From Natrarchaeobaculum aegyptiacum (GTDB lineage: Archaea > Halobacteriota > Halobacteria > Halobacteriales > Natrialbaceae), in NCBI RefSeq assembly GCF_002156705.1, contig NZ_CP019893.1, forward strand, positions 1,178,001-1,242,000: a stretch of 64,000 bases of DNA, read 5' to 3'. Positions 2,839 through 21,995 of the stretch are shown here, one piece after another; the first letter of the stretch is position 1; each line of letters begins with the position of its first letter. Made by a program: the position numbers and the translations under genes. Under the pieces are notes generated by a model. That model made no database searches, had not been told where the DNA came from, and saw nothing but the letters and a program-made list of their open reading frames with translations.

Positions 2839-4151
2839 ACAAACAGTGGTTCGGCAGTGTACCCACCCATTGGGAGTCTATTCCGCTAAAGTACCTCTTC
2901 CAGTTTACTGGAGGAGGGACTCCATCCAGAAGCCAGTCAGCGTACTGGGATGGCGATATCCCATGGGTCTCTCCAAAAGACATGAAATCAAGTGAGATTA
3001 AGGACTCGGAGGAATATATCACGCAAAAGGGGTTAGAGGACAGTTCCTCCTCCCTCGTTCCGGAAGGCTCACTCTTGATTGTCGCTCGCTCCGGGATTTT
3101 GAAACGTACTATCCCTGTTGCTATAGCTTCCCAGCCAGTAGCTATCAATCAAGACCTTCGAGCACTCATTCCCACAAGAGATGATTTTGACGTACGATTT
3201 ATCCGACTGTTCATACGCGGGTACCGAGATACATTACTTAACCTGTGGCGATCAAAAGGTGCCACAGTAGAGAGTTTGGATTCTAATGAAATAGCGGCAA
3301 CACCGTTTCCTCTTCCACCATTAGAGACACAAAAAGAAATTATTGATTTTGTTGATCATCACGGATCTCATATTGATGTTTTAATTGAGAAGAAGGAACA
3401 CATGGTTGAGAAGTTGAAAGAGAAGCGGGAAGCAATGGTCACAAAGTCGGTTACTAAAGGAATCGACTCGAATACAGAGATGAAGGAGACAGAGGTAGAG
3501 TGGATCGGATCAGTTCCTTCTCACTGGGAGAGGTTACGAATAGGCAGCCTTATTGAAGAAGTGAAGCACCCAGTGGAGGTTAGTGACGATGAGGTATACC
3601 AAGAAATCGGCATCAGATCTCACGGGAAGGGGATATTCCATAAAGATCCCGTCACAGGCGAAGAAATCGGGAACAAAAATGTCTTTGAAGTTGTTGAAAA
3701 AGCATTGATATTTAATATTGTTTTTGCTTGGGAAGGTGCGGTCGCTGTAAGTACTGAGGCTGAGAATGAAATGATTGCTTCTCACCGTTTCCCAATGTAC
3801 GTTCCAAGAAATGAAGAGATAAGCCTAGAGTATTTGAAATACTTTTTCACGCATGGTTACGGACAAGGAGTTCTCGATTGGAATTCACCGGGAGCAGCTG
3901 GTCGCAATCGAACACTTAACCGAGAGGCAATGTTGAGCGAGGAGTTTTGGTTCCCTCCAGCAGACGAACAGCAAAGGATCGCACAACACATTTCGGACAA
4001 CTTGTCCAAGATTAATTCACTTATAAATACGATAGAACAAGGAATTCACTTACTCAAGGAGAAGCGCCAGACTTTCGTCAAGCGTGCTATCACTGGACGA
4101 ACTGATTTAAGTGACTGGGATGTGTCAGAAGAGATGGAAAGTCTCGTATGA
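2835..4151 (+). CDS. hsdS: Type I restriction-modification system, specificity subunit HsdS
   Basis: HsdS carries the two target-recognition domains that set the DNA sequence read by the HsdM2S and HsdR2M2S complexes. Both half-domains are recognisable in the 438 aa: each opens with a W(F/I)GSVP(T/S)HWE segment (about residues 5 and 220) and ends with a helical spacer rich in Lys and Glu (HIDVLIEKKE... near 175-205; INSLINTIEQ... near 395-420). The recognition sequence cannot be read from the gene. Start ATG overlaps the hsdM stop, and the stop overlaps the hsdR start, so the three genes are translationally coupled. The gene is clearly more AT-rich than hsdR. Confidence 0.95.
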   Translation: MNKQWFGSVPTHWESIPLKYLFQFTGGGTPSRSQSAYWDGDIPWVSPKDMKSSEIKDSEEYITQKGLEDSSSSLVPEGSLLIVARSGILKRTIPVAIASQPVAINQDLRALIPTRDDFDVRFIRLFIRGYRDTLLNLWRSKGATVESLDSNEIAATPFPLPPLETQKEIIDFVDHHGSHIDVLIEKKEHMVEKLKEKREAMVTKSVTKGIDSNTEMKETEVEWIGSVPSHWERLRIGSLIEEVKHPVEVSDDEVYQEIGIRSHGKGIFHKDPVTGEEIGNKNVFEVVEKALIFNIVFAWEGAVAVSTEAENEMIASHRFPMYVPRNEEISLEYLKYFFTHGYGQGVLDWNSPGAAGRNRTLNREAMLSEEFWFPPADEQQRIAQHISDNLSKINSLINTIEQGIHLLKEKRQTFVKRAITGRTDLSDWDVSEEMESLV

Positions 4152-7117: not shown

Positions 7118-7427
7118 CTTCATTTGATAAAACACTATTGCTGTCTGGAACCCCGGTTAATTCGCACGTGTAATGAGCAGTATTTTCCGAGAGTTAAAGA
7201 AACGAGTTTCAACAAAGCCGTTCTGTGTAATTGGTATCGTAGCTTAATCCCACGACTGCTTGACTGCTTCACGTCGATCGTTGAGACGATCTTGTTCCGT
7301 GCGAGGATCGTAATGCTTCTTGATCACCTTCACAGAGACGTCAAATCGCTCACTTGCTCGTTCTCTCCGGAGGCCACCGCTGAGATGGCTGACAATCGAT
7401 CCTCGACGGATCGCATGTGGGTAATAA

Positions 7428-7437
7428 GACTCTGGGC
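7428..7437. repeat. IS target-site duplication, left copy
   Basis: GACTCTGGGC directly abuts the left end of the IS and recurs at 9067-9076 directly after its right end. Confidence 0.93.
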
Positions 7438-7453
7438 CATCCGTTCTAGCTTA
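7438..7453. repeat. IS terminal inverted repeat (left)
   Basis: CATCCGTTCTAGCTTA; matches the complement of 9051-9066 at 15 of 16 positions. Confidence 0.9.
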
Positions 7454-7567
7454 GCGACTAACTGAGACGGTGATCACGCCGAAAATGCGTCGAGTCTCAC
7501 CGCAATCATACCGAGATAGCTGCTGCTCAAGCAAACCAGCCGGTTCTTGGTCATGTCTCCCGTCGAA

Positions 7568-7599
7568 GGCGGCGCACTCGCAGTCGTGAGTGCGCCGCC
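7568..7599. terminator. Perfect 12-bp hairpin downstream of transposase
   Basis: Arms GGCGGCGCACTC and GAGTGCGCCGCC around an 8-base loop, about 60 bases past the transposase stop. No T-run follows on the minus strand, so a terminator role is inferred from position and stability only. Confidence 0.5.
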
Positions 7600-7644
7600 G
7601 TTCCAGAGCCGTCGCTGACCAGCCTGGGCGATCCAGCCCGTCTC

Positions 7645-7677
7645 GTCAGGCGAGTTCGTTACCAGAACTCGCCTGAC
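7645..7677. terminator. Perfect 13-bp hairpin spanning the transposase stop codon
   Basis: Arms GTCAGGCGAGTTC and GAACTCGCCTGAC around a 7-base loop; the transposase TAA (7659-7661) sits in the loop. It could slow ribosomes at the stop, end transcription, or block read-through into the element from outside. Confidence 0.5.
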
Positions 7678-8987
7678 TCCACCTGTTCACGTAACCTCGG
7701 ACGGTGTGGATTTGGATCTCGTGACGACCACAGCAACAACGAATCGAGATCCGGTAGCTCGTACCCCAGATCCAACATCAGGTACAACTGGATCAGATGA
7801 GCGTGGCGTTCGACAGCGTGTGAACATCGTCGTCGAGGAAGCCGCGTCGACGACGCCGCGGCGTCGTCGGCGCAGTCTCGCTGCTTTGCGTCCAGTTTCT
7901 GGAGTTCGTCGACGATAACCCGGCTCATCAGCAGCGAGAGTGCTGCCATGATGATCAGCGCCTCGATGATGTAGGCGTCGGTCGTGTTGATCTCGTCCAG
8001 ACCGAACCGTGATTTGAGTTCTTTGAACAGCAGTTCGATCTCCCAGCGCGCCCGATAGAGCTGTGCGATATCGGGCGCGCGGTAGTCGTCTCTCTCCAGA
8101 TTCGTCAGGTACAGATGATACTCGCCGCTGTCATCGTTGCGAACGCCGACTAATCGGAAGGTTCGGGTCGCGCTGGCGCCCGACCCTCGTTTGCGGTCGA
8201 ACGAGAGCGTGATCTGTACGTCAATTTCCTGTCGCTTCAGGTCGTCGAGGACGGCCTGCAGCGACTGGCCTTCTAGCGGAATGCTGTTCCCTCGCCACGT
8301 CCGGAGTTCTTCGACGATTTCGAAGTCTGCGTTTTCTTTGACGCGAGAGACGAACCAGCCATCATTGGCGTCAATGCGGTCGAACAGCCAGAAATCGTAG
8401 TAGCCGAGATCGAACAGAATGAGGGCGCCAGCTACCCACTCGCCGGTGGGTAGCTGGCTCCGTTCATGGGTGCTCGCGTCGGTCGTCCGAAATCGCGTTG
8501 GAAGTCCCGTTGAGAGCGATTCGGTGAGATGGAGTTTCGCCCCGGCTCGGTCATCATCGAGTGCGTAGACATCTTTGGCGTCTTGGTAGAGCGAGATGAT
8601 CGTCGCGTCGACGATGAGGACGTCTCGAAATCGTTCGAGACGTCCGCTCAGCTCGGTTTGGCCGGTGTCGAGATTCTCGATGGCCTCATCGAGAATCTCT
8701 CGAAGGAGTGCGACGAACCCTGGTTTGAACCAGCCGTGAAACGTCGCATACGAGAGTTCGTCGCAGTCAGCCATCTCGACGTAGCGTTCGAGAAACGCCT
8801 GAATGGATCGATCAGAACCAGCGGCAAAGCCGAGGGAGAGCGTGTAAAACAACGCGACGACGTCGAGTTTCCGCTCTCGCTGGATAAGATTCGTTGCGCG
8901 AGCACGCTCGCGCAACTCATCGGATGGAAACGCTCTTTGAATTCGGTTCACAACTACTGAATCCGGTGGTTTGTACACACTTCCCAC
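7659..8987 (-). CDS. IS4-family (ISH8-type) transposase
   Basis: DDE transposase of 442 aa that would excise and insert the surrounding 1629-bp element. The catalytic triad is visible: first Asp about residue 127 (IVDATI), second Asp in the LILFDLGYYDFW segment, and the IS4 signature Y-x2-R-x3-E-x6-K in LYRARWEIELLFKELK. The ORF starts with GTG (complement of 8985-8987), 79 bases inside the right end; an in-frame TGA lies just upstream, so no earlier start is possible. The gene looks intact and therefore potentially active, agreeing with the perfect target duplication and the identical neighbouring copy. Confidence 0.95.
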   Translation of the reverse strand: MGSVYKPPDSVVVNRIQRAFPSDELRERARATNLIQRERKLDVVALFYTLSLGFAAGSDRSIQAFLERYVEMADCDELSYATFHGWFKPGFVALLREILDEAIENLDTGQTELSGRLERFRDVLIVDATIISLYQDAKDVYALDDDRAGAKLHLTESLSTGLPTRFRTTDASTHERSQLPTGEWVAGALILFDLGYYDFWLFDRIDANDGWFVSRVKENADFEIVEELRTWRGNSIPLEGQSLQAVLDDLKRQEIDVQITLSFDRKRGSGASATRTFRLVGVRNDDSGEYHLYLTNLERDDYRAPDIAQLYRARWEIELLFKELKSRFGLDEINTTDAYIIEALIIMAALSLLMSRVIVDELQKLDAKQRDCADDAAASSTRLPRRRCSHAVERHAHLIQLYLMLDLGYELPDLDSLLLWSSRDPNPHRPRLREQVESGEFW

Positions 8988-9050
8988 CGGATTCTCACAT
9001 TCCTAGTTACTGACGATTCTAGCTTGGCGTCTCTGGATACCCCGACCTGT

Positions 9051-9066
9051 TAAACTAGAACGGATG
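9051..9066. repeat. IS terminal inverted repeat (right)
   Basis: TAAACTAGAACGGATG; inverted partner of 7438-7453. Confidence 0.9.
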
Positions 9067-9076
9067 GACTCTGGGC
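9067..9076. repeat. IS target-site duplication, right copy
   Basis: GACTCTGGGC, same as 7428-7437. Confidence 0.93.
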
Positions 9077-10009
9077 ATACGTTCGAATCAGGATTACAGC
9101 TACCATCACACGAGCAATTATCCACATCTTTTGGATTCCAGCGGCAGCTCGTAGCTTCGTACACCCATCGCCGAAGTGTCGACCGAGATGCCCGTCCGTA
9201 TTCTGTCGCAAATAGCGGCTCTCGACCGTACTCGTCAGTAACGTCAGGCCGTTCTGTCTCGATATACAATTGAATTGCGCTTATGACCTCGTCTTTAATC
9301 ACGATGTTTCGCTCACCATCACCAGCTGTGTTCGAATTTTTGTTTCCATTCTTTAGCCTCGTTCCTGTTTCCGGTCTGTGACGGAAGCGGAGTTCTTTCT
9401 TCTTGGGATCAAAATCAGGGACATCAAGAGAGTGTACGCCACCAATACGTGGTCCACCATTCCAGAGAAGCTCTGTGAGAGCATGCATACCAGAACCTCG
9501 TCGACGTTGCCGGAGTCGATGAAGGATACCTGTGGCTTCAGATTTCGGAATCGCCTCGTCACGAGCTCTTGGAGTCAGACCGAGTTCCTCCTTATCGAGG
9601 ATTCTGTAAATTGATTCGTCGCATAGTTCCCGTTGGCTGAGCCACCGAAGCCATGTGCGTGCGTTCTTCGTATACGTAAGGATCGTTGCGTCAGAGTCAT
9701 ATTCCGACTGTAAGTAGTCGACGTACGCATCAACCAACGGTGAAGAAATCTCTACTGGGTTCGTAATGTCATTGTCTGCTGCGAATTCAACGAATCGAGG
9801 AATTGTTCGCTTGTACTGGGCCCGCGTTGACGGGCTCCGATTCTGCCTGCGTGAAAGAAATCGCTTGTAGAGATCAGAGAGGGTGGCTTGAGCAAATCTA
9901 TTTCGAGGAGAACTCTCTTGGGACGTATCGTCCACATCCATTTGCTTCAGCACTTTCTCGATAGTCTCAGGGTCATCGATCTCCGACAGCAGATGGACAA
10001 TATTCTCGT

Positions 10010-10918
10010 TCATTGTCCCTCCAGGAACTGCAAAATTGAATACTGCCAAATTTCACTGGGCACGACGCAACTAGTTTGGTGTCGTGTGTGAGGTGACGCT
10101 ACACCAGGATATTCTTCCGCTCTCTCACTGGCTTGTTTCACTTCCCGTCGAAGCGTCGATTCACTCGCTCTCCCATGGGAAGTCGTCAATAATGGGTTAT
10201 CAGAGATTTCTGTAGGCTTTTTCCGTTCATAGGCTATGAACTCTTCAAGAGCTTCAGAAGTTTCTGGAGAAATATTTGCAACTCTCTGTGTTACGAGACC
10301 AGCCTTGCTTACAAGGTGCGTTTCTGGGATCGAGATTACGATAGTACCGTTATCCGAATTGGCGTTTTCAAGCTCGAGATTTCGTACACACCCTGCTTGG
10401 CTACATGTATCAAGTATGAGTTCTACATATACGTGGACCCGAGTACCAAACTGACGCTCACGGAGGTAGGTTACCAACGATGAAATCCGATCGGATAGAC
10501 TTTGGATGTCAGCACCTGTAGAGATACCGAGAATGTGTTCATCGATCTCACTATAATCTATCACATCTGATGATTTGATTTCCGAGAGCAATATTGCCTT
10601 GAGAATGTTTGGATCCTCTTGGTGAATGAATGACTGAAAGTTTATTAGAGAATTCATATGTCCACAGATAGTAGTAATATCCTGAGCAGTATTCTCTGCC
10701 AGGTACTCAACAAATCGGCACAGTTGATGACTTTCTAACCAAGCTTCAGAGGAACTGGGTTCTGGAATCCACTCTCTGAGTTTAGTGATTACAGTTTGAT
10801 GTGACCAAAAAGTTGAGTCGGGTGCACTACTTGACAATTCACTCAGGTAGGATTCAGCTGCACTGTCGAGAGACTCAAAAGAGTCACTCGTTCCCTCGAC
10901 CTGCTCAAAGCAGGTCAT
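10010..10918 (-). CDS. Degenerate tyrosine recombinase-like protein, probably catalytically inactive
   Basis: A 302-aa protein whose layout follows the recombinase downstream: helical core-binding region (about residues 15-115), then a catalytic-domain-like part ending in the segment HGRASESTLRREV, which closely matches YGRASRSTLRRWV in its neighbour. The position of the first catalytic Arg reads CVRNLEL without the usual G-x-R, there is no H-x-x-R box, and no C-terminal Tyr motif, so I infer it cannot catalyse strand exchange. It overlaps the active partner by ATGA, implying coupled synthesis, perhaps as a structural or regulatory subunit. Alternatively it is a decaying paralogue. Tandem palindromes precede it (10995-11068). 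Confidence 0.7.
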   Translation of the reverse strand: MTCFEQVEGTSDSFESLDSAAESYLSELSSSAPDSTFWSHQTVITKLREWIPEPSSSEAWLESHQLCRFVEYLAENTAQDITTICGHMNSLINFQSFIHQEDPNILKAILLSEIKSSDVIDYSEIDEHILGISTGADIQSLSDRISSLVTYLRERQFGTRVHVYVELILDTCSQAGCVRNLELENANSDNGTIVISIPETHLVSKAGLVTQRVANISPETSEALEEFIAYERKKPTEISDNPLLTTSHGRASESTLRREVKQASERAEEYPGVASPHTRHQTSCVVPSEIWQYSILQFLEGQ

Positions 10919-10994: not shown

Positions 10995-11015
10995 AGTGGT
11001 CACTCAGTGACCACT
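10995..11015. promoter_or_regulatory. 21-bp perfect palindrome upstream of recombinase operon
   Basis: Arms AGTGGTCACT and AGTGACCACT around a single C, about 80 bases upstream of the 10918 start. A near copy lies 53 bp away at 11048-11068. Candidate operator, or a core binding site for the recombinase pair. Confidence 0.65.
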
Positions 11016-11047
11016 CCGGTTCCAAGAATTCGTGTTTGTAGAAGTGC

Positions 11048-11068
11048 AGTGGTCACTCAGTGGGTACT
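11048..11068. promoter_or_regulatory. Second, imperfect copy of the 21-bp palindrome
   Basis: AGTGGTCACT-C-AGTGGGTACT; the left arm is identical to the first palindrome and the right arm has three changes. Confidence 0.55.
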
Positions 11069-11396: not shown

Positions 11397-12428
11397 TTAG
11401 TTGTCTTCGTTGTTCCGTTCCTTGTGCAGCAACTCTCTTATTAATTCTTTATACTCAGTACTATTGCTTGAATAATACTTCTCAGTGGTTTCTGTAGACT
11501 TATGGTTTAGAGCGTCACGTCGGGCTTCAGGCGAGAGCCCTGCTTCTTCCATTGAATGACTGAAAGTGTGGCGAAGTGCATGGACTGTTACTTTTTTCCA
11601 TTTTCGAACATCTGAATCAATACCGAGTACATCTTTTTCTCGCTCAGACACCTTCGACTCTCCAAGATTTTCCTGTATTCCTGCGTTCCGAGCTGCTTCT
11701 TTAACAATTGCCAATAGACGACTTTCAGAGAGGTGTCCGCCGTGTTTGGAGGGGAATACGTAATCGTGATCCTCTGAAGACGGATACGTTGGTCGATACA
11801 AAGTCAACCAGTGTTTGAGCTCCACTGATAACGCATCACTGATTGGGAGAGAGTACCTATCGCTTGTCTTTGTATCTGATAGGCAGATTGTTCTGTTCTC
11901 AAAGTCAACGTCTCCAACTCTAATTTTTCGGAGATCGATATTACGTGGGCCCAGTTCTGCTCCAACTGTGACCATCAACCGATCTCGAAAAGTATCCAGT
12001 TCATCATACAGAGCCTCTAATTCGCTTTTATTTAGGGGCTCTCGTTCGATCGCTGGGGGTGTACGGAACCGTTCGATATCTATGTTCTCAAGAAAAAGAT
12101 AATCAATTTGAGCCTCTTTTTCTGTTTCCAACCGGATCCATTTGTACAGCCCCTTGATTACCGTTAGATCTGATCTAAGTGTAGCTTTTCGCTTACCCTG
12201 TCGAGCTCTCTTCTTCAAGTAAGAGCGTACATTCTGAGATTTTGCCGTGAGAGCTTCTACCGAATTCTCATCTAAATGCTCAATATACCCTCTTAAATAC
12301 GACTGATAGGTTTTCGCAGTGCTTCTAGATATTGTTGCCCCGCATTCGGAATACAGATATTCATTTCCTAGTTTTGATCTTGTATTCAGCTCTAACTTAT
12401 CTTTAATTTCGCTGTTTCTCTCATTCAT
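11397..12428 (-). CDS. Tyrosine recombinase (XerC/D-like integrase), module 1
   Basis: A 343-aa site-specific recombinase with a full catalytic set: first Arg in ELGPRNIDL (about residue 170), a beta-hairpin Lys in DTKTSDRY, H-x-x-R in HALRHTF (about 287-291), and the nucleophile Tyr in ETTEKYYS near the C terminus. The N-terminal SAM-like core-binding domain covers about residues 35-125. Its start overlaps the stop of the RHH protein upstream by eight bases (ATGAATGA), a tight coupling. It is paralogous to the recombinase at 13515-14519, with the same partner order. The DNA is AT-rich compared with the core chromosome. Confidence 0.9.
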   Translation of the reverse strand: MNERNSEIKDKLELNTRSKLGNEYLYSECGATISRSTAKTYQSYLRGYIEHLDENSVEALTAKSQNVRSYLKKRARQGKRKATLRSDLTVIKGLYKWIRLETEKEAQIDYLFLENIDIERFRTPPAIEREPLNKSELEALYDELDTFRDRLMVTVGAELGPRNIDLRKIRVGDVDFENRTICLSDTKTSDRYSLPISDALSVELKHWLTLYRPTYPSSEDHDYVFPSKHGGHLSESRLLAIVKEAARNAGIQENLGESKVSEREKDVLGIDSDVRKWKKVTVHALRHTFSHSMEEAGLSPEARRDALNHKSTETTEKYYSSNSTEYKELIRELLHKERNNEDN

Positions 12429-12975
12429 CGTTTGACACCCCAGCCATATTAATTTCGTATTCTATTCGCCCTGATGACCTAGTTTTACTGACTAAACCTT
12501 GATCACACAAGGTCTGGAGTGTGCTCTTGAGCTCTACCAGTGATCCATCAACCTGCGATGCGATCTGATCAAGTGAGATTGATCCTTGGCTGCGAATGAG
12601 GTCATATATTCGGCTCTGCCTTCCCGAATCCTTGCTCTGATGTTGGGAAATTTTCCTAAGGTCCTCATCAGTTGATTTTTCTTCTAAATTTTCTTGTAAT
12701 GATTCCTGGAGGTCGCCTATTTTTCCCTCCAAATCTTGTACTGCTGTTACTAACTGTTTGACCTTGAATTCGTTCTCTCCTTCAAGTGATTTTGCATGAT
12801 CTTCTATGGCCGCTCGTAGACATGCACTTCGATTTCCGGCGTATCTCTCGGCTGCCATTTTGTCAAGCAATTGTATCTGCCGCTCCAGAATCGTCACACT
12901 CGGACGGACGACATCCGAAGGGTGATTCTCTGTCTGATCTCCAGAAGACCCGTCAACCGCATCTCTGGTCAACAC
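12421..12975 (-). CDS. RHH / coiled-coil / winged-helix DNA-binding protein, module 1
   Basis: A 184-aa protein with three visible parts: a ribbon-helix-helix-like segment (about residues 22-62, RPSVTILERQIQLLD...RSACLRAAIEDH), a heptad-rich coiled coil with repeated LQ-x2-L pattern (about 65-105), and a winged-helix-like C terminus (about 118-175, IYDLIRSQGSISLDQIAS...GLVSKTRS). Such a protein would bind DNA as a multimer and may direct or repress the recombinase translated from the overlapping downstream gene. Start is GTG (12975). The same domain order is found in 14519-15055. Confidence 0.72.
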   Translation of the reverse strand: MLTRDAVDGSSGDQTENHPSDVVRPSVTILERQIQLLDKMAAERYAGNRSACLRAAIEDHAKSLEGENEFKVKQLVTAVQDLEGKIGDLQESLQENLEEKSTDEDLRKISQHQSKDSGRQSRIYDLIRSQGSISLDQIASQVDGSLVELKSTLQTLCDQGLVSKTRSSGRIEYEINMAGVSNDE

Positions 12976-13121
12976 AGGCCACCCCCCTTTAGCGGTGCTT
13001 CGTAGAGATATTCGGTGACTCTTTGTGCAGCAATCTGGCGTTCTGAACAGCTAATTCTACGCGGCCCATAGGGCTTATCTCTGTACAACTGACAGTTCTT
13101 ATCGGGGTTTGCGATTATCAT
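12969..13121 (-). CDS. Possible small protein (50 aa) coupled to the RHH gene
   Basis: ATG at 13121 opens a 50-residue frame (MIIANPDKNC...) whose TGA overlaps the GTG start of the RHH gene, an arrangement typical of translational coupling. It has two Cys and a basic middle. The upstream continuation of the frame through the GC-rich hairpin region is probably not coding. No family recognised; it could equally be a leader peptide or chance. Confidence 0.3.
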   Translation of the reverse strand: MIIANPDKNCQLYRDKPYGPRRISCSERQIAAQRVTEYLYEAPLKGGGLC

Positions 13122-13131
13122 GTATCGTAGA

Positions 13132-13248
13132 CTCCGCCTCCGGGGCGTGGGGGCGCCCCGGCCCCTCCCAGCAAGAAGACCACACCTGTGGCTATTGGTA
13201 AGGGAGAGAGGCGGTCGGAGCATGTTCACACGGAGTTTCCTCCGTGTG
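13132..13248. ncRNA. Candidate structured RNA or folded DNA site, five hairpins
   Basis: A GC-rich block in an AT-rich gap folds as: outer stem 13132-13135/13217-13220 with 13136-13140/13208-13212; inner hairpin CGGGGC/GCCCCG (13141-13160); second inner stem CTCCC/GGGAG (13165-13169/13202-13206) around CCACA/TGTGG (13180-13191); then a separate perfect 9-bp hairpin CACACGGAG-TTTC-CTCCGTGTG (13227-13248). The strand is undetermined. It lies 5' of the module 1 genes on the minus strand, so it may be a leader, an independent RNA, or a hairpin recombination site. I do not recognise a known RNA family. Confidence 0.45.
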
Positions 13249-13514
13249 GACTACTGTTCTCTGCCCAGCCTCTTATTTTGTCGCATTTGTCAGATTGGAA
13301 TTTTCTACAATTCTCAGAATATGGGGAATAGTACGGAGTATACGGCTCGAAAACGGTTAAAAAGTAATATTCGAAAATCTAATGTGAAATAACATCGGTA
13401 GAGCGAGTGGAAAATTCTGGTTGAAACACCCTAAATGTGTTTCACGAAAATACAAAATCTAAAACCGAAAAAAGGAGTCGAATGTCCAATATGTTCTGTA
13501 TGGGGGAGACATTC
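13249..13514. other. AT-rich gap downstream of recombinase module 2
   Basis: 266 bp rich in A/T with no supportable gene; together with the structured block it makes about 390 bp without a protein gene. It contains the inverted repeat and T-tracts listed at 13422-13477. Confidence 0.55.
13422..13477 (-). terminator. Probable terminator of recombinase module 2
   Basis: Reading on the minus strand after the stop at 13515, several T-runs (complement of 13447-13477, including a run of six) are followed by an inverted repeat TGAAACAC/GTGTTTCA (13422-13444, 7-base loop). Oligo-T tracts are the usual archaeal termination signal. Confidence 0.45.
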
Positions 13515-14519
13515 CTACCTTGGTGGCACGAATCTGTCCCGAACCGTCGAAAAATGATCTTCAGTCAGATGAGTGTACTCGCGCGTCGTTTCTGCGCTCG
13601 CATGATTGGCAACTAGTTGCCTGTATGATATATCTATACCTGAATCCGCAAGAAGAGTGATAAACGAATGGCGGAGCGTATGGGGTGTCACTCGGTGCCA
13701 TTGTCGGACATCCCTTTCTAGCATTGACCCGTCATTCCGTTGAATCTGTGATTCACCAATTACCTCTTGCAATCCAGCCTGCTCAGCTGCGTCACGAACT
13801 ATCTGATTAAAACTACTGTTCGTTTCTAATTTCAGGCCACATTGGCTCGGAAACACATATGGACTCTCATCCGACCTCGCATAGCCGGTTCGATGATGTT
13901 GAAGCCAGAACTCTAACTCATACGCCAATTTGTCACTTATTGGGACATCATAGGGTTTCGATCCCTTCGGGTCAGATATATGAATCTGTAAATAGTCAAA
14001 ATCTAGATCTGCTATTTTGAGGTCCCGTAAATCTGAATTTCGAAGGCCAGTCTCAACTGCAACCACTGCCATGAGCCGATTTCGATAGGAATCGAAGGCA
14101 TCGAACAACCGGCGTAACTCCTCCCGAGAGAGAGCTTCTCGCTCGATTGGTTCTGGCGTCTGGTAGCGGCTTACATCGATATTTCCTACTCGTAAGGGTT
14201 CTAATTGTAGCTGGTCGCCTTCCTCCGTTCGGAGTCGAATGTACTTGTACAGTTCACTAATTGTCGTTACTTTCCCCTCAATTGTCGATCGGCGATTCCC
14301 GAGTCGGACACACTCCTCGACGAACTCTAGCACGTCTGTAAACGTCGCTTCGAGGACTGATGTGTTATCGTCGTGAAGAAATATAACGTACCCTCTGAGA
14401 TTGGATTCGTACGTCTTCGTGGAACTGGACGCCAGCTTTAGATCCGCTGCGTGCTGTAGATATTCTTTTGCGTACTTGTTCGGTACCGCAAAACAGCCTG
14501 TTTCGATGTCTTGTGTCAT
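13515..14519 (-). CDS. Tyrosine recombinase (XerC/D-like integrase), module 2
   Basis: 334-aa recombinase with an intact active site: first Arg in ETGLRNSDL, Lys in DPKGSKPYD, H-x-x-R in HTLRHSF, second His in VANHAS and the Tyr in TTREYTHL near the end. It shares layout and several segments with the module 1 recombinase (for example PEPIEREALSREEL against PPAIEREPLNKSEL). Its ATG overlaps the TAA of the upstream RHH gene by one base (TAATG). It appears to be the last gene of an operon that also contains a Cas4-like nuclease. Confidence 0.9.
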   Translation of the reverse strand: MTQDIETGCFAVPNKYAKEYLQHAADLKLASSSTKTYESNLRGYVIFLHDDNTSVLEATFTDVLEFVEECVRLGNRRSTIEGKVTTISELYKYIRLRTEEGDQLQLEPLRVGNIDVSRYQTPEPIEREALSREELRRLFDAFDSYRNRLMAVVAVETGLRNSDLRDLKIADLDFDYLQIHISDPKGSKPYDVPISDKLAYELEFWLQHHRTGYARSDESPYVFPSQCGLKLETNSSFNQIVRDAAEQAGLQEVIGESQIQRNDGSMLERDVRQWHRVTPHTLRHSFITLLADSGIDISYRQLVANHASAETTREYTHLTEDHFSTVRDRFVPPR

Positions 14520-15055
14520 TATTTTGTTCCTCGGTTTTGTGAGGAAATATTCTGACCAGCATGTCTGTATCGTTGTTTTCCATCAGTTGTCTCGACCACG
14601 AATCCCAGGTCAACTAGCCGGGCTATACTTTCCTGAAGCTGTGATGGATTCAGCTCGGTCTGCTCGAGGAAATCCTCCATCCGTAACGGCGACCCAGAAC
14701 TGTCTAGAGCATCAATTATAATCTGCATCCCCTCCGTCAACTCGACGCCCCATACAGCTGAGCGTAGCTCTGTTTCTTTCTGACCTTCGTCCCTCCCTAC
14801 GCTGGCATTATCGACATCTGCCTGGAGCTCCTGCATTCCTTGCTGGAGTGCATCTAACTGCCGCGCAACTTGGCGAGCTGCAAATTGGCCATCCCCTTCG
14901 AGAGTTTTTCGATGGCTTTCAATTGCTGCACGCAGACATAGACTCACATTTCCCTGATAGTGCCGAGTCGCCATTTTCTGTAACGTTTGATCGAGTCGCT
15001 CCGTGATTGTGAATTTCCGACGGACGAACGTTGGATCCGCTTCAGTCATAGCCAC
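14519..15055 (-). CDS. RHH / coiled-coil / winged-helix DNA-binding protein, module 2
   Basis: 178 aa, paralogous to 12421-12975: RHH-like start (RRKFTITERLDQTLQ...SLCLRAAIESH, about residues 10-50), a coiled coil (about 55-85) and a winged-helix-like C terminus (about 110-165, IIDALDSSGSPLRMEDFLEQ...LGFVVETTDG). The start is ATG at 15055, 51 bases after the stop of the gene upstream, and its end is coupled to the recombinase. I infer an accessory or regulatory role for recombination. Confidence 0.7.
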   Translation of the reverse strand: MAMTEADPTFVRRKFTITERLDQTLQKMATRHYQGNVSLCLRAAIESHRKTLEGDGQFAARQVARQLDALQQGMQELQADVDNASVGRDEGQKETELRSAVWGVELTEGMQIIIDALDSSGSPLRMEDFLEQTELNPSQLQESIARLVDLGFVVETTDGKQRYRHAGQNISSQNRGTK

Positions 15056-15106
15056 TCACGAGTGTTATCCTCAGAGAGATCGTGGTTGATTTGCTGTTGG
15101 GCATGG

Positions 15107-15673
15107 TCATAGCGGCGTCCCCTCAAGTACAGTGCTCGGGACTAAACGATACATACGTGTCCAGACTTCCCAGACACGCTCTGCTGTTCCGTTGCTTACG
15201 ACCTGTTGTTGCGCGTCATCCGTTACGCGGGGACGACTTCGACCTTCTTCAGCAAGTCCGTAGTCAGAGAGTGACTGTCCGAACTGGGTCTGCAGTTGTG
15301 ACTCAACGTCAACGTGTGTGAACCCCCGGAGAGACGGTTTCTCAATTTCTGATGTTATGAACCCCGCCCGAAGCCGCTGTAGCGTTACTTGATCTGGTGT
15401 AACGAGCAGTGTATCCTGATAGCGATATGCCTGCAGTTCGTTGTGGAGTTTGGTGAGAAGATCGTCTCGAGAGTAAATACGTTCTCCAGCCAAACTCGAT
15501 GCCGCCGTTTTGACTAATTTCACCGGGTTTCCGACACCAATCTCCCAGTACTCAATTTCTCCAACAGAATTCTGCAAATCCCCTGGATTATTGGATTGCT
15601 TAGTCCCTCCTGTAATGAGGAATAGCCAACTCTCCCGAAGATCGTCGAGATGCAGCCAGCTATTCCGTGACAC
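15107..15673 (-). CDS. Unknown protein partnered with the Cas4-like nuclease
   Basis: A 188-aa protein of unknown family. Its start lies inside the 3' end of the nuclease gene; GTG at 15673 is preferred over GTG 15682 because a GGGAGG Shine-Dalgarno-like sequence sits eight bases before it. The protein is mixed alpha/beta, with segments such as EIEYWEIG, LLVTPDQVTLQRLR and SLRGFTHVDV that have the look of a DnaQ/RNase H-type exonuclease, but I cannot identify its acidic residues with certainty, so that is only a guess. The overlap argues for a joint function with the nuclease. Confidence 0.6.
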   Translation of the reverse strand: MSRNSWLHLDDLRESWLFLITGGTKQSNNPGDLQNSVGEIEYWEIGVGNPVKLVKTAASSLAGERIYSRDDLLTKLHNELQAYRYQDTLLVTPDQVTLQRLRAGFITSEIEKPSLRGFTHVDVESQLQTQFGQSLSDYGLAEEGRSRPRVTDDAQQQVVSNGTAERVWEVWTRMYRLVPSTVLEGTPL

Positions 15674-16772
15674 GACTGTCACCTCCCGTTCCCTGGGTGG
15701 GAATCGAGTCCCCCCTCAGTGTAGCTGGGACCTCGTTATTACAACAAGACGGACAGAGAGGTGGTTCAGAGAGGTCACCGGTCCAATCGACCGAGTCGTA
15801 CGGATAGGACTTATCACAGCGCTCACATCGCCAATCGTGTACCTCAAACCTGTCCGCTAATTCTGGATATTGATCTGAGAGGGTCGGTGTGAGCTTTGCA
15901 TCCTCGTGACTCTCCAGATGACGTATAGCCTCTTCTCGGGGGTATTCATGCAGCGGCAGTAATCCTACAGAATCTACGCTCTCGTAGGTTGCATTTCCTT
16001 GACCACACCGATCTCTAAAAGAACAAACGCTACACTCCCAGCCGTACTCGGGATTTGCCGGTGGCAACTCCTCGTCAAGTCGGTACGACGTATGTGTCTC
16101 CGTCCAGGCTAGGACCGTATTGCGCCAGAACCACGGATCGAATTCGATGTGGAACGCTTTGACATTGAGAGTTTCTCGACTTCCGTACAGAACGACTGCT
16201 TCCGTCACTTTCCGGTTGTGTTTCTCACTCAATCCCTTCATGTAGGCATGCGCTTGTGCCCGATGATGTCTATTCGGCGATCGAACGTTGTCTACGGATT
16301 GTTTGGTTTTGATCTCTGTGAGAAGCAATGGCTCACCATCTGAATCTACGATCACAGGATCCGTTTCTCCCTTGATCTGGATCTTACCAGTGTCCGTTTG
16401 GACGGTGAAATCGACCCAGAGCGAGTTCGAGACGTATTCGTGGTTGTCAACTACAGCTTCCCTAAGAAAGGTCAACACGAGATCTTCCTCAAATTGTGAC
16501 CCGAACCAGAAGATCCCCGCTGGGTCCGGCTTTTCTGCTGGTGCGTTGTGTTGTCGATACGCGATTTTTCGGTGACACTGCAGTAGTTGGCCTGGACTGT
16601 GTTTTCTGGGGGATGGCACCGGCGAAGGACCGTTGAAATACGGTTTTCCGTCTTCGATGTTCCGCCTGAACTCCCTTTCTCGATACCAGTCTCGAAATCG
16701 TTCTCCAGAAATCTCGTTAACCAGGTTGCCCACGGGCATCTGGTGTTCCTCTTCACTATCTCCTTCGCCCAT
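15660..16772 (-). CDS. Cas4-like PD-(D/E)xK nuclease with Fe-S cluster cysteines
   Basis: 370 aa from ATG 16772 (GAGGAA lies seven to eight bases upstream; an earlier ATG at 16826 is possible). Like Cas4/AddB-type nucleases it has an early Cys (SPGQLLQCHRK), a nuclease core with Asp in GETDPVIVD and E-x-K in LTEIKTK, the QAHAYM helix, and a late C-x2-C-x5-C group (ECSVCSFRDRC) that with the first Cys would hold a 4Fe-4S cluster. A C-terminal extension contains another pair of C-x2-C knuckles (CERC, CPSC), a zinc-ribbon-like addition. No cas1 or cas2 or CRISPR array is present, so this is a solo Cas4-like protein, associated here with a recombinase. Confidence 0.8.
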   Translation of the reverse strand: MGEGDSEEEHQMPVGNLVNEISGERFRDWYREREFRRNIEDGKPYFNGPSPVPSPRKHSPGQLLQCHRKIAYRQHNAPAEKPDPAGIFWFGSQFEEDLVLTFLREAVVDNHEYVSNSLWVDFTVQTDTGKIQIKGETDPVIVDSDGEPLLLTEIKTKQSVDNVRSPNRHHRAQAHAYMKGLSEKHNRKVTEAVVLYGSRETLNVKAFHIEFDPWFWRNTVLAWTETHTSYRLDEELPPANPEYGWECSVCSFRDRCGQGNATYESVDSVGLLPLHEYPREEAIRHLESHEDAKLTPTLSDQYPELADRFEVHDWRCERCDKSYPYDSVDWTGDLSEPPLCPSCCNNEVPATLRGDSIPTQGTGGDSRVTE

Positions 16773-16858
16773 TGTGTTCCTCTTCTCTGGTGGCTTGATC
16801 GTTGGCCATGCAGGTGAGAAACACACGGAGAAGTCACTTGATCAATAGGCGATTGTGT

Positions 16859-17248
16859 TCACGAGTCTGATCCATCGGGATTCACGTCCTCGAGATTCTG
16901 TAATGTTCGGAATGCTGTTTGATTGAGATTGTTCAGCAGAAGGGTGATCGCGAGGTTCGGCCCAGCGGCAACAGTCTGGCGCTCGGAGTCATAGATGATG
17001 ACGTCGGCGTCCGATAGTGTTGATAGATGCGTCTGAGAAAGTGCATTGTACACGTTGCGATACGGTTCACCAGTCGCGCGTTCCAACGGGACATCTTGTT
17101 CTCGAGCAGCGATCTCTCGAGCGAGGGTTCGAACCGAGAGGTCTCTATCGCTCTCTGCAACCAACTCGATCACGTAGCGGCGTCGTGGCGCTCTGAGGGA
17201 GTGATACACCCTCGAGAGATAGTCGTCACCGCAGTTGTTACGGCCCAT
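16859..17248 (-). CDS. Winged-helix protein (DUF7344-like)
   Basis: 129-aa protein with the layout of a common haloarchaeal winged-helix family: YHSLRAPRRRYVIELV (helix 1), SVRTLAREIAARE (recognition helix region), VYNALSQTHLSTLSDADVIIYDSERQTVAAG (wing). Probably a transcription regulator. It is the first gene of a minus-strand run that continues with the Cas4-like nuclease 86 bases downstream. The operator palindromes at 17351-17388 lie about 100 bases upstream and also serve the divergent gene at 17434. Confidence 0.75.
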   Translation of the reverse strand: MGRNNCGDDYLSRVYHSLRAPRRRYVIELVAESDRDLSVRTLAREIAAREQDVPLERATGEPYRNVYNALSQTHLSTLSDADVIIYDSERQTVAAGPNLAITLLLNNLNQTAFRTLQNLEDVNPDGSDS

Positions 17249-17350
17249 AGTGAATTCGTTGGCCGGGCTCGAGAGAGTGGGACGGCTGTGCTCCGAGGGG
17301 GATTCTCCGGGTGATTCCCTGCATGGACGTTTGCAAACCCATCCAGCGGA

Positions 17351-17388
17351 TTAGTTCTTTTGAAAGAACTAATGACGGTTAGTTCTTT
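17351..17388. promoter_or_regulatory. Palindromic operator with a second half-site
   Basis: TTAGTTCTTT-TG-AAAGAACTAA (17351-17372) is a perfect palindrome. TTAGTTCTTT recurs at 17379-17388, 28 bp on (close to three helical turns), followed by a weak right arm. It lies between divergent genes and near the likely promoter of the winged-helix gene at 17434. Confidence 0.65.
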
Positions 17389-17433
17389 CAAGAGAATAAA
17401 TGGCTAACTACGATCTGACCAGGGGTTTTCATA

Positions 17434-17670
17434 ATGAGCGATGGACCTGGTCGGAAACCGACGGTCACTGACGACGACATCCTCGACATCTTTCGTTCGA
17501 GTTCTGATCCCGTTCTGACTACGTCAGAAGTGGCGTCTCATTTTGATATCACACATCGAGGTGTTCGAGATCGGTTGGAGAAACTCGAGCAAGAGGGAAT
17601 ACTTGAGTGTAAGAAAGTTGGAGCTCGAGGAATGGTCTGGTGGTATCCTGGAAACACATCGACCCGTTAA
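17434..17670 (+). CDS. Small winged-helix transcription regulator
   Basis: 78 aa, essentially a single winged-helix domain: DDILDIFRSSSDPVLTT, SEVASHFDITHRGVRDRLEKL as the helix-turn-helix, and GILECKKVGARGMVWWYP as the wing. It is the likely ligand of the palindromic operator directly upstream, giving autoregulation and control of the divergent operon beginning at 17248; that assignment is inference. The following 184 bases hold no gene. Confidence 0.8.
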   Translation: MSDGPGRKPTVTDDDILDIFRSSSDPVLTTSEVASHFDITHRGVRDRLEKLEQEGILECKKVGARGMVWWYPGNTSTR

Positions 17671-19299: not shown

Positions 19300-20457
19300 A
19301 TGGATCTTGACCCCGACCGGTACCGGCAGATGAGTAAGAGAGAAATCCTTCGAGAGCTCATCGAACACGTCTCCACCTCTGAAGAGAATCAAGAGGAGAA
19401 GGAACACCGGAGCGGGAGTTCTACAGACCTCAATCTCTATCTCCTGGACAACCGTGGGTACGAGATTGGCTCACTCGACGATTACATCAACCACATCACG
19501 AAAAGCGGGCGAGTGAGTGGGCACGCCAAGAATTTCGTATCGAATCACACCTTCTCAGAAGAGAATTTGGGTCCTGAAACTGCGCTTGTCAGCATCACAA
19601 CACCGGAAAAATCGAGAACTGACGACTCTATTTGGATTCAACAGGGCGAGTACATTTGGGTTCTCACAACCGAACGCCAAGATTGGCGAAAGAAGACAAT
19701 TGAGAACCTCATCAAGTACCTACCACAAGTCGAACGGTTATACCTCTCGTCAGAGTACCTTGACGCCCTTACACAGGAAGATATCATCCGAGACTCCTAC
19801 ATCTCAGGGTTCACTTCCCAATATCACGCCCCCTACGCGGATCGACATGCGACACTCCGCTTCCACGGAGGTCGCAGGGAGGATCTCGAGAAGGCAGAGA
19901 GGTATTTCAATGCCAAACCAACCCGGATCGAGTTCGACCAAACAAACAGTCCCGAAGCCGCGATTCAGGGAGCGAGTACGAACGACGGTCGCCTAACACT
20001 CCAATCAGTTGTTGATGGATCACAGGACAAGGCTGTTGAAACGCTGCTAAGCGTTTCTGAGGAATACCAGGAGCTGGACAAGGCGAACTTCGAGGTTGAT
20101 CACGAGCCGACACACAACAGCTTCGAGAACGGATTTTCGGTAGACGGATTTACGGCTATCGAACTTACTGACCCAGATCGGTCCACTGAGACGGGTGAAG
20201 CGCTGGTTGAAGAGTTGAAGGAGAACGTCCTCAATGGTCCGCAGTACAAGTTCGGCCAGCGGGATCGGAATACCCTACGAGTGTTCGACACTCAGCATGA
20301 CGAGATTTTTGATCTTGCTGTTGAGGGCCCGAACATCATCGTCTACCCGCGTGAGCCAGCAACTGCGATGAGTCTCAGAGATATCGTGCAGGAAATTTAC
20401 GAGTACGACTCGACGTACTCGCAAAAGAAGGTCGAGAATCCTGTTGCGCGGCCCTGA
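19300..20457 (+). CDS. Unknown protein, first gene of a two-gene nuclease module
   Basis: 385-aa soluble protein with no recognised family. The N-terminal 45 residues are helical and charged (MSKREILRELIEHVS). The middle contains LYLSSEYLDAL and ISGFTSQYHAPYADRHATLRFHGG, and a later segment VDGSQDKAVETLLSVSEEY; the layout suggests two alpha/beta domains. The stop is five bases before the start of the PD-(D/E)xK protein, so the two are cotranscribed. Position beside a tRNA in a mobile island together with a restriction system is what is expected for a defence module, but function is not shown by the sequence. Confidence 0.7.
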   Translation: MDLDPDRYRQMSKREILRELIEHVSTSEENQEEKEHRSGSSTDLNLYLLDNRGYEIGSLDDYINHITKSGRVSGHAKNFVSNHTFSEENLGPETALVSITTPEKSRTDDSIWIQQGEYIWVLTTERQDWRKKTIENLIKYLPQVERLYLSSEYLDALTQEDIIRDSYISGFTSQYHAPYADRHATLRFHGGRREDLEKAERYFNAKPTRIEFDQTNSPEAAIQGASTNDGRLTLQSVVDGSQDKAVETLLSVSEEYQELDKANFEVDHEPTHNSFENGFSVDGFTAIELTDPDRSTETGEALVEELKENVLNGPQYKFGQRDRNTLRVFDTQHDEIFDLAVEGPNIIVYPREPATAMSLRDIVQEIYEYDSTYSQKKVENPVARP

Positions 20458-20462
20458 TAGAA

Positions 20463-21533
20463 ATGTCGGAGTCACCAAACGTAGATCGGCAGCTTAGGGA
20501 GAAACAGACCTATAATCTGTTCTATAGCGCGATGACAGCTCGCGCGACCCCCTGCCTTGCTGATCACGGTTGGCGAATGCCGATCAAGTTTGGCGAAATC
20601 CATGATACATACGCTGGTGTTATTTCAGAGCCGGATTTCGTGCTGTATGATGGGGACACCTGCCTGCTCGTCGAAGTCAAGTCGGGAAACAATATCGAGG
20701 AGAGACACATCAGGCAGATGCGACGGTGTAACGAACTCACTATCGACGGTGTAGAGGACGAACTTGAAGCGGCAGATGTGCAGGAGAAGACACCGTACGA
20801 TGGATCAGTTCGGACGATTGACCGTTGCATTGTATACCAGGACATCGATAAAGAGTGGGTTGGGAACTGTCGTAACGAGTGGGAGAATTGCCGAGAGCGT
20901 CTCGAGGAACTCGAGGAAGAAGCTGCGGTTCTCACACAGGACTTCGGTGGGAAGTTACGACGGGTAGCTGGTGAATTCAAGTCAGGTCGTCTCCAGAACC
21001 GGTTCGATGAAGGGGTTGAGTTGCCCGAGAACCCGAAAGAGGAGTTCGTGTTGACCGAGAATATGGATAAAGAGATTCTCGCGATTGCCATCTGCGGGAT
21101 CTGGGGCGAGCAATCGATTGGGCATGAGATCCCTGTGATGGTGAACGTGAACCAGATCCGTGATTACTTCTCACCGACGTTCAATGTGCCTCCTGACAGG
21201 GTTAATCGGGTTCTCTATTATTTGCAGGAGATCGGTGCTTGTGATCACGTAGAGGACTTGACTTACGAGTTCTCGCGTGACCATATTTCGGAGATGCTGC
21301 AAATCATGCAGACGGTTCGTAGGGAACCGGTTGAGGATGTGCTTGAGGACGTGGATGAGGACCACATTCCGGATGAGCATCAAGCGACACTCGATATGGT
21401 TTCTGAAGAGGGAATCGCCGATGGTGGTGACAAGGACGATACTGACGAAGATGACAACGACGACGAGGAAGGCAGCCATGAGGAAGATAGCGACGGGGAA
21501 GAAGGCAATCCTGACGAGTCAAATCAGGGATAA
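20463..21533 (+). CDS. PD-(D/E)xK nuclease-like protein with acidic tail
   Basis: 356 aa. Residues about 55-85 form a restriction-endonuclease-like core: PDFVLYDGDTCLLVEVKSG gives Asp, then E-x-K at the expected distance, followed by the helix RHIRQMRRC. A charged coiled segment (about 140-165) and a winged-helix-like part (about 215-270, NVNQIRDYFSPTFNVPPDRVNRVLYYLQEIGAC, shortened here in meaning to the helix pair) follow; the last 45 residues are almost pure Asp/Glu/Gly/Ser. The nuclease may cut DNA or RNA, with the upstream protein as sensor or partner. A 10-bp terminator-like hairpin begins seven bases after the stop. Confidence 0.7.
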   Translation: MSESPNVDRQLREKQTYNLFYSAMTARATPCLADHGWRMPIKFGEIHDTYAGVISEPDFVLYDGDTCLLVEVKSGNNIEERHIRQMRRCNELTIDGVEDELEAADVQEKTPYDGSVRTIDRCIVYQDIDKEWVGNCRNEWENCRERLEELEEEAAVLTQDFGGKLRRVAGEFKSGRLQNRFDEGVELPENPKEEFVLTENMDKEILAIAICGIWGEQSIGHEIPVMVNVNQIRDYFSPTFNVPPDRVNRVLYYLQEIGACDHVEDLTYEFSRDHISEMLQIMQTVRREPVEDVLEDVDEDHIPDEHQATLDMVSEEGIADGGDKDDTDEDDNDDEEGSHEEDSDGEEGNPDESNQG

Positions 21534-21615: not shown

Positions 21616-21889
21616 ACCGGAACCGTATCTGCATCAGTTTCAATATCGCAATTGTTGAAGTCACCAAAATGTATACACAATTTCGTAAGAGAGTGCGTCA
21701 ATTGTTTATTGATTAAATGGCTTCTCGACGTCGACTATCAAAGAAGGCACGACAACAGCGACCCGCGTCTAACAGCTAGATGAACTCCAAACACGACCCG
21801 AGGGTCAATCACCACCCAAAATCAGAAAATAAGGGATACAAACGCTGTACCCTGCAGGTGCGTTGGCTCAGAACCGTGCAGTTTCTGGA

Positions 21890-21995
21890 TGGGCCCTGAC
21901 GGATTCGAACCATCGACCACTCGGTATCCCACGAAACCCGACTGATCGAGTTCCGATATGAGCCGAGCGCTCTAACCAGACTGAGCTAAGGGCCC
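21890..21995 (-). tRNA. tRNA-Met (anticodon CAT) with intron
   Basis: On the minus strand: acceptor GGGCCCT/AGGGCCC, D-arm GCTC...GAGC, anticodon stem CTCGG/CCGAG, T-arm GATGG-TTCGAAT-CCGTC, discriminator A; CCA is not encoded. The anticodon loop reads CTCATA, then about 31 extra bases, then A, so an intron lies after position 37, the usual archaeal place. CAT with an intron points to elongator tRNA-Met, as in other haloarchaea, rather than tRNA-Ile2. Its 3' end faces the mobile island. Confidence 0.92.

Follow-up and report, generated by a model that had tools for sequence, protein, structure and literature searches.

The 64-kb stretch of DNA analysed here (the window) belongs to the haloarchaeon Natrarchaeobaculum aegyptiacum (source genome G000; the other G and L labels denote genomes and loci of relatives) and carries, within an integrative element, a minus-strand operon that joins a Cas4-like nuclease to a tyrosine recombinase. 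A sequence-only reading had delimited five genes with short gaps or overlaps, and all five open reading frames (ORFs) were found at the limits assigned to them, with intergene distances along the operon of 32, −23, 51 and −1 nt. The selection was too narrow, however, since the conserved block also includes a second unit of a ribbon-helix-helix (RHH) protein and a tyrosine recombinase (RHH2/TyrA2, 11397–12975), a pair of recombinase genes called TyrB (7241–10918) and a helix-turn-helix (HTH) gene (17434–17670). The block consists of the following features, where types A and B are classes of related loci described below.

16859–17248, minus strand: DUF7344 winged-helix protein (Pfam E-value 6e-20), kept upstream of Cas4 in type-A and type-B loci
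15660–16826, minus strand: Cas4-like PD-(D/E)XK nuclease with Fe–S cysteines and a C-terminal zinc-ribbon-like motif, recognised by residues and fold
15107–15682, minus strand: partner protein P188, 188–191 aa (191 aa in G000), DnaQ/DEDD exonuclease fold in an AlphaFold model, catalytic acids lost
14519–15055, minus strand: RHH1, RHH and winged-helix DNA-binding protein, kept in type-A loci
13515–14519, minus strand: TyrA1, tyrosine recombinase with intact catalytic set (Pfam E-value 3.5e-29)
12421–12975, minus strand: RHH2, paralogue of RHH1 by clustering and tree
11397–12428, minus strand: TyrA2, paralogue of TyrA1; TyrA2 copies form one clade (support 95)
10010–10918, minus strand: TyrB1, relative of the SNJ2-family recombinases without the catalytic residues, identified by nucleotide identity to the congener G181
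7241–10049, minus strand: TyrB2, SNJ2-family recombinase split by an insertion sequence (IS); the homologue in G181 is intact
17434–17670, plus strand: small HTH protein (HTH matches), divergent from the operon
17350–17402: paired palindromes TTAGTTCTTT..AAAGAACTAA, inverted repeats between the divergent genes

The Cas4 fold of the nuclease was confirmed. In an alignment of 54 sequences the catalytic residues D156, E171, K173 and Q191 as well as the Fe–S cysteines C84, C265, C268 and C274 are invariant (54/54), and four further cysteines lie in the C-terminal zinc-ribbon-like motif. The AlphaFold model (pLDDT 70.7) matches Cas4 SSO0001 best (Z 15.3), followed by the Cas4 of a Cas4-Cas1-Cas2 complex (Z 13.8). 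PADLOC recognises a Cas4 with an E-value of 1e-11; the NCBIfam cas4 match (E-value 5.5e-10) scores 39.4 bits and thus stays below the cut-off of 65, which is why the protein is named Cas4-like and not filed as cas4. Its real start is probably an internal ATG. The absence of cas1 and cas2, which had already been remarked upon, was upheld by Pfam and NCBIfam searches of the operon, and no such cluster occurs among the recurrent neighbours of 56 related loci.

The partner protein P188 has no family in Pfam, NCBIfam or PHROGs, and its sequence matches in the PDB are at chance level only. Two of the five AlphaFold models are confident (pLDDT 80), and the model resembles many DEDD exonucleases (VIA Z 12–13). 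None of the 11 columns that are invariant among 12 homologues is acidic or His, so the protein is predicted to be inactive. For RHH1 the RHH part follows from homology to its paralogue RHH2, which has a weak RHH_1 match, and the C-terminal winged helix from weak matches. The TyrA family preserves R, K, H and R in 25 of 25 sequences and Tyr in 22 of 25; TyrA1 and TyrA2 form separate groups in the tree, pointing to an old duplication retained as a pair. Each of the core genes tested shows purifying selection, with dN/dS values of about 0.1–0.3.

The IS in TyrB2 (about 7437–9067) is of the IS4 type, with terminal inverted repeats CCATCCGTTCTAG and a target duplication of 8–10 bp. The palindromes at 17350–17402, which have similar counterparts at the equivalent position in G181, are from their sequence a probable operator, and the small HTH protein beside them is, by inferred function, a probable repressor. 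Upstream of TyrB1, at 11001–11062, there is a palindrome with repeats of CACTGAGTGACCAC, as also upstream of TyrB1 in L034, L035 and L051; it is a candidate operator or recombination site. The intergenic stretch between TyrA1 and RHH2 (12980–13500) contains a GC-rich hairpin GGGGCCGGGGCGCCCCCACGCCCCGG and has no Rfam match; it could represent a structured RNA or what is left of an IS.

One nuclease, several recombinase modules

Of 391 Halobacteria genomes, 60 encode the Cas4-like protein, and they are spread over 34 of 86 genera. When the genes in 19 kb around 56 copies were clustered, the neighbourhood proved not to be random: three recurrent architectures, type A (n=12), type B (n=25) and type C (n=13), cover nearly all loci. 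Type A, to which the operon in the window belongs, has the order Cas4, P188, RHH, TyrA, mostly with a second RHH-TyrA unit in tandem; in three type-A loci this second unit is inverted and 0.3–3.6 kb off. The order P188-RHH-TyrA directly after Cas4 is exact in 10 of 12 loci from several haloarchaeal families, and the idea that the genes form a unit conserved beyond chance is thereby substantiated. Carriers of type A include Natrialba, Natronomonas, Halorubrum, Halolamina, Halobacterium and Haloferax. In type B, with carriers including Natrarchaeobius, Halorhabdus, Halococcus and Natrinema, Cas4 is followed by a TFIIB-like gene (TFB) and serine recombinase 1 (SerR) in either order and by a convergent serine recombinase 2, often with an SNJ2-family recombinase next in line. 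The Resolvase and TFIIB assignments were confirmed by Pfam, the catalytic Ser of SerR is present in 45 of 45 sequences, and a TFB or SerR gene lies immediately 3' of Cas4 in 24 of 25 type-B loci. A scan of all ORFs showed that DUF7344 and the small divergent HTH gene (h9/h10) precede Cas4 in most loci of both types.

In type C an Orc/Cdc6-like ATPase gene precedes Cas4, and an HxlR regulator and a transposase follow it in most loci; the same gene order was found in two plasmid records. The type-C units L061, L063, L066, L067, L071, L073, L074, L079, L199 and L200 lie partly on plasmids, and the start of the unit contains a conserved CGGAAATTCGGAAAT repeat with several copies in it. Type C was also considered as a Tn7-like transposon, with ends around nuclease, AAA+ ATPase and transposase; no convincing terminal inverted repeats were seen around these units.

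The link between nuclease and recombination that had been read from the five genes is thus real, but it is not a link to this particular tyrosine recombinase: most relatives have serine recombinases after the same nuclease. The clearest case is offered by G000 and its congener G181, which carry elements at the same tRNA gene, of type A and type B, respectively. They have three segments in common, namely HTH-DUF7344-Cas4 with 87% nucleotide identity, the TyrB pair with 86% and the terminal integrase with 84%, whereas everything between these shared segments, cargo included, is unrelated. In a tree of 54 Cas4 proteins (a quick tree, with support by SH-aLRT only) the A and B labels interleave, so that at least 8 changes are needed, 6–8 of them forced by well-supported branches; 12 of the 13 type-C proteins fall in one clade. 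Between L034 and L035 the synonymous divergence (dS) of Cas4 is 0.2, as against 1.7–2.9 for P188, RHH1 and TyrA1, while the pair G000 and L035 displays the opposite pattern (Cas4 dS 1.45, TyrA2 dS 0.28). The break in dS at the Cas4/P188 junction, the interleaving of A and B and the contrast between G000 and G181 together indicate that cassettes have been exchanged where the nuclease gene ends, at its 3' side. By comparison of these sequences, it is shown that the downstream recombinase module must have been swapped as a cassette many times while the nuclease stayed. That the nuclease was kept while the recombinase pair was exchanged between two unrelated types suggests that it serves recombination and not CRISPR.

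These data also bear on a reading in which the block is a stack of remnants of several elements in one hot spot and the Cas4 operon has no joint function. Accretion of this kind would fit the tandem arrays found at tRNA-Met and the strong mosaicism of the elements, but it is hard to reconcile with the gene overlaps and constant gene order of 10 of 12 type-A loci, with the TFB or SerR gene that immediately follows Cas4 in 24 of 25 type-B loci, or with the purifying selection seen in each core gene tested. Moreover, P188 is almost confined to these Cas4 loci: it occurs in 14 of 391 genomes, and 12 of the 14 copies are found there. The two others (in G297 and G009) have no Cas4-like gene in the surrounding 20 kb, and one adjoins an RHH-TyrA pair. 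We therefore regard accretion as highly improbable.

The tRNA-Met island, its integrase and its cargo

The operon had been proposed to be a self-contained machine, with ends expected near 13.5 and 17.4 kb. No repeats flank the core at these positions, and the core as a unit so bounded was rejected. It is instead the inner core of a much larger element at a tRNA-Met gene, the attachment (att) sites of which lie at 21889–21902 and at −9474, and it is a separate SNJ2-type integrase, encoded at the far end, with which integration goes hand in hand. The features that define the element and its main cargo are listed here.

G000:C1:1168526–1199902: integrative element, 31.4 kb, of which 1–21902 lies in the window and a further 9.5 kb to the left of it; 14-nt direct repeat at both ends, low G+C, integrase near the far end
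21890–21995, minus strand: elongator tRNA-Met(CAT) gene with a 31-nt intron, the integration target (ARAGORN with introns; Rfam RF00005, 57.7 bits)
21889–21902: attL core ATGGGCCCTGACGG, with an exact second copy (attR) at G000:C1:1168526–1168539, window position −9474
847–7117, plus strand: type I restriction-modification genes M, S and R (PADLOC E-values 8e-284, 6e-98 and 2e-36)

The 14-nt core corresponds to the last 13 nt of the tRNA-Met gene plus one nucleotide and is repeated exactly 31.4 kb away; the G+C content of the element region is 44–54%, compared to about 65% for the chromosome. Such an arrangement recurs: the 3' end of a tRNA is repeated 22–64 kb away in at least 11 other loci, at least 13 elements have far-end repeats, and in 18 of the 19 loci where such a tRNA was found the closest upstream tRNA is on the Cas4 strand and points at Cas4. 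In 12 bounded elements a recombinase of 336–353 aa stands at the far end and starts some 70–110 bp from the repeat; in G000 this SNJ2-type integrase lies about 105 bp inside the attR end and is 45% identical to the SNJ2 integrase over 99% of its length. The SNJ2 virus genome has the same 14-mer, adjoining its integrase gene; one match with up to three mismatches is expected by chance in that genome, and the weight of this match rests on its exactness and position. According to a review of archaeal recombinases (PMC8371274), the SNJ2 integrase uses an att site of 14 nt free of stem-loops, and many SNJ2-like operons lack the accessory genes orf2/orf3. In the relative G391 the sequence right after tRNA-Met matches the G000 sequence just beyond attR (80% over 323 bp), and this direct junction supports the boundary of the element, although the G391 flank might be element DNA itself because tandem elements occur at tRNA-Met. 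A search of a phage collection gave no match and IMG/VR one weak match, so that identity with a known virus was not borne out.

Which tRNA is used follows the terminal integrase. When SNJ2-family proteins are placed in a tree, terminal integrases from tRNA-Arg elements group in one clade (98) and those from tRNA-Met elements in another (100), and G181, with its type-B core, has a terminal integrase inside the tRNA-Met clade; hence the target follows the terminal integrase and not the core. At L044 a type-B core resides in an element at tRNA-Glu whose att site is a 42-nt repeat and whose integrase is of another family, without an SNJ2-type terminal gene, which indicates that the core is portable among integration systems. 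It is very unlikely, therefore, that the operon itself is the integration machine, with TyrA1 and TyrA2 inserting and excising the island and the SNJ2-type integrases being leftovers of other elements. The TyrA proteins are indeed intact and under purifying selection, and one SNJ2-family gene of G000 is disrupted by an IS. Nevertheless, besides the tracking of the tRNA target, the att core equals the 14-mer adjoining the SNJ2 integrase gene, a terminal integrase adjoins attR in nearly every bounded element, and type-B elements sit in tRNA genes without any TyrA beside Cas4.

Tandem arrays of elements occur at tRNA-Met, with serial SNJ2-type terminal integrases and att copies (L035 with L163–L164; the end of L103), and G392 has two att copies 105 bp apart.

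The cargo of these islands includes many defence genes. For 77 larger cargo proteins from eleven bounded elements, the PADLOC and Pfam matches listed, which cover the 25 commonest families, include type I and II methylases and specificity subunits, Pbe and Lamassu-like proteins, ResIII helicases and McrBC. In G000 a second cargo block lies between the window and attR (L096:11756–18695, corresponding to G000:C1:1169756–1176695), encoding proteins of 229, 461, 1026 (ATPase-like) and 489 aa that resemble an unassigned defence system. Beside attL, at 19300–21533, two adjacent genes encode proteins of 385 and 356 aa without a family, the latter with an E-x-K motif; they are probably cargo as well.

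A defence role had also been considered for the operon itself, but the defence genes are cargo around the core. One may still envisage the core as cargo for defence or for competition between elements: the recombinases and DNA-binding proteins would single out rivals by their att or junction DNA, which the Cas4-like nuclease would then destroy. Defence genes abound in the cargo around the core, the tandem att copies in G392 and the repeated terminal integrases at L035 show that elements compete for one tRNA, and Cas4 homologues act in both defence and anti-defence (PMC5704561). Still, we consider such a role unlikely: the core always points away from the tRNA and is common to elements with wholly different cargo, which is backbone-like and not cargo-like, the recombinases retain full catalytic sets, and no PADLOC system matches the core except for generic Cas4 models.

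Possible role of the core and relation to known systems

Comparison of the loci shows that the island ends in defined att sites, that the choice of tRNA goes with the terminal SNJ2-type integrase, and that nuclease and recombinases make up a conserved core. The reading that we favour, with a probability of roughly 50%, is that the operon is the auxiliary recombination core of a family of haloarchaeal mobile islands, which are integrated at tRNA genes and bring defence genes with them. The operon would be switched on by the HTH and DUF7344 proteins, with control at the palindromes at 17350–17402. The two different recombinases would act as a pair, either on sites within the element or between elements. 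In this second recombination step, which may be excision, re-integration or exchange of cargo, the Cas4-like nuclease would resect or cut DNA ends or intermediates. Since the nuclease works beside two unrelated recombinase chemistries, generic DNA processing is to be expected and not a step specific to one recombinase.

Several observations weigh against this reading. No site was identified at which TyrA or SerR recombines, nor any repeats bounding the core or the cargo, and help in excision, re-integration, cargo exchange and competition between tandem elements are therefore inseparable. The slot between the paired recombinases is mostly empty. According to the review, the SNJ2 integrase recombines alone, without cofactors (PMC8371274), which makes the core dispensable for plain integration. 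Finally, each element belongs to one species, so that present-day activity does not follow from the comparison. A more specific candidate, a cargo-insertion machine with a fixed slot, was rejected: the slots are empty in most type-B loci, and a comparison of DUF7344-Cas4 junctions gave no repeat signature.

In a wider view, tentative and in our opinion doubtful, the Cas4-like nuclease is a general plug-in partner that mobile elements combine with unrelated DNA-joining enzymes: two tyrosine recombinases in type A, two serine recombinases in type B and, in the separate clade of type C, an Orc/Cdc6-type ATPase with, in most cases, a transposase behind it. Its role might then be comparable to that of TnsA in Tn7, and Cas4 would have a use apart from CRISPR, in the exchange of cargo between defence islands.

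Casposons and CRISPR adaptation modules resemble the core in that a Cas4 nuclease, in type A together with a DnaQ-fold protein, is encoded beside a DNA-joining enzyme. They differ in that the operon has no Cas1 or family-B polymerase and that its joining enzymes are tyrosine or serine recombinases; moreover, unlike in adaptation modules with Cas4 or DnaQ-like trimming, the DnaQ-fold P188 lacks catalytic residues. The Gamma-mobile-trio defence islands are likewise based on a tyrosine-recombinase element with exchangeable defence cargo. Their gene content is different, however, and TyrA scores 29.2 bits against the GmtY cut-off of 340.

With SNJ2 (Betapleolipovirus) and SNJ2-type elements, as described in the review (PMC8371274), the element shares the integrase family (45% identity), the 14-nt att core and insertion at a tRNA 3' end, but the island of G000 is 31 kb in size and carries defence genes and a Cas4-recombinase core. 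The mobile islands of Halorubrum ezzemoulense are likewise integrase islands of low G+C content that include restriction-modification genes, and some of them occupy shared sites; a Cas4-recombinase core is not described in the passages of that paper that were searched (PMC11078007). The impression that no system of this make-up had been reported agrees with the passages searched in open-access papers on Cas4 families, archaeal recombinases, archaeal dark-matter islands and Halorubrum islands, where no description of the arrangement was found; an earlier description elsewhere is possible. The elements belong to a family of islands in tRNA genes by which restriction genes and other defence genes travel among haloarchaea, and their att sites and integrases are defined precisely enough for bench testing. 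The two congeneric species provide a natural experiment, which shows that one nuclease is combinable with tyrosine or serine recombinase cassettes.

The nuclease is also comparable with the solo-Cas4 and MGE-Cas4 nucleases (PMC5704561), which likewise reside in mobile elements away from CRISPR loci. The recombinase-coupled arrangement is not described in that paper, the main text of which does not mention Halobacteria, integrases or resolvases, and the islands described here give solo Cas4 nucleases a concrete and widespread context outside CRISPR.

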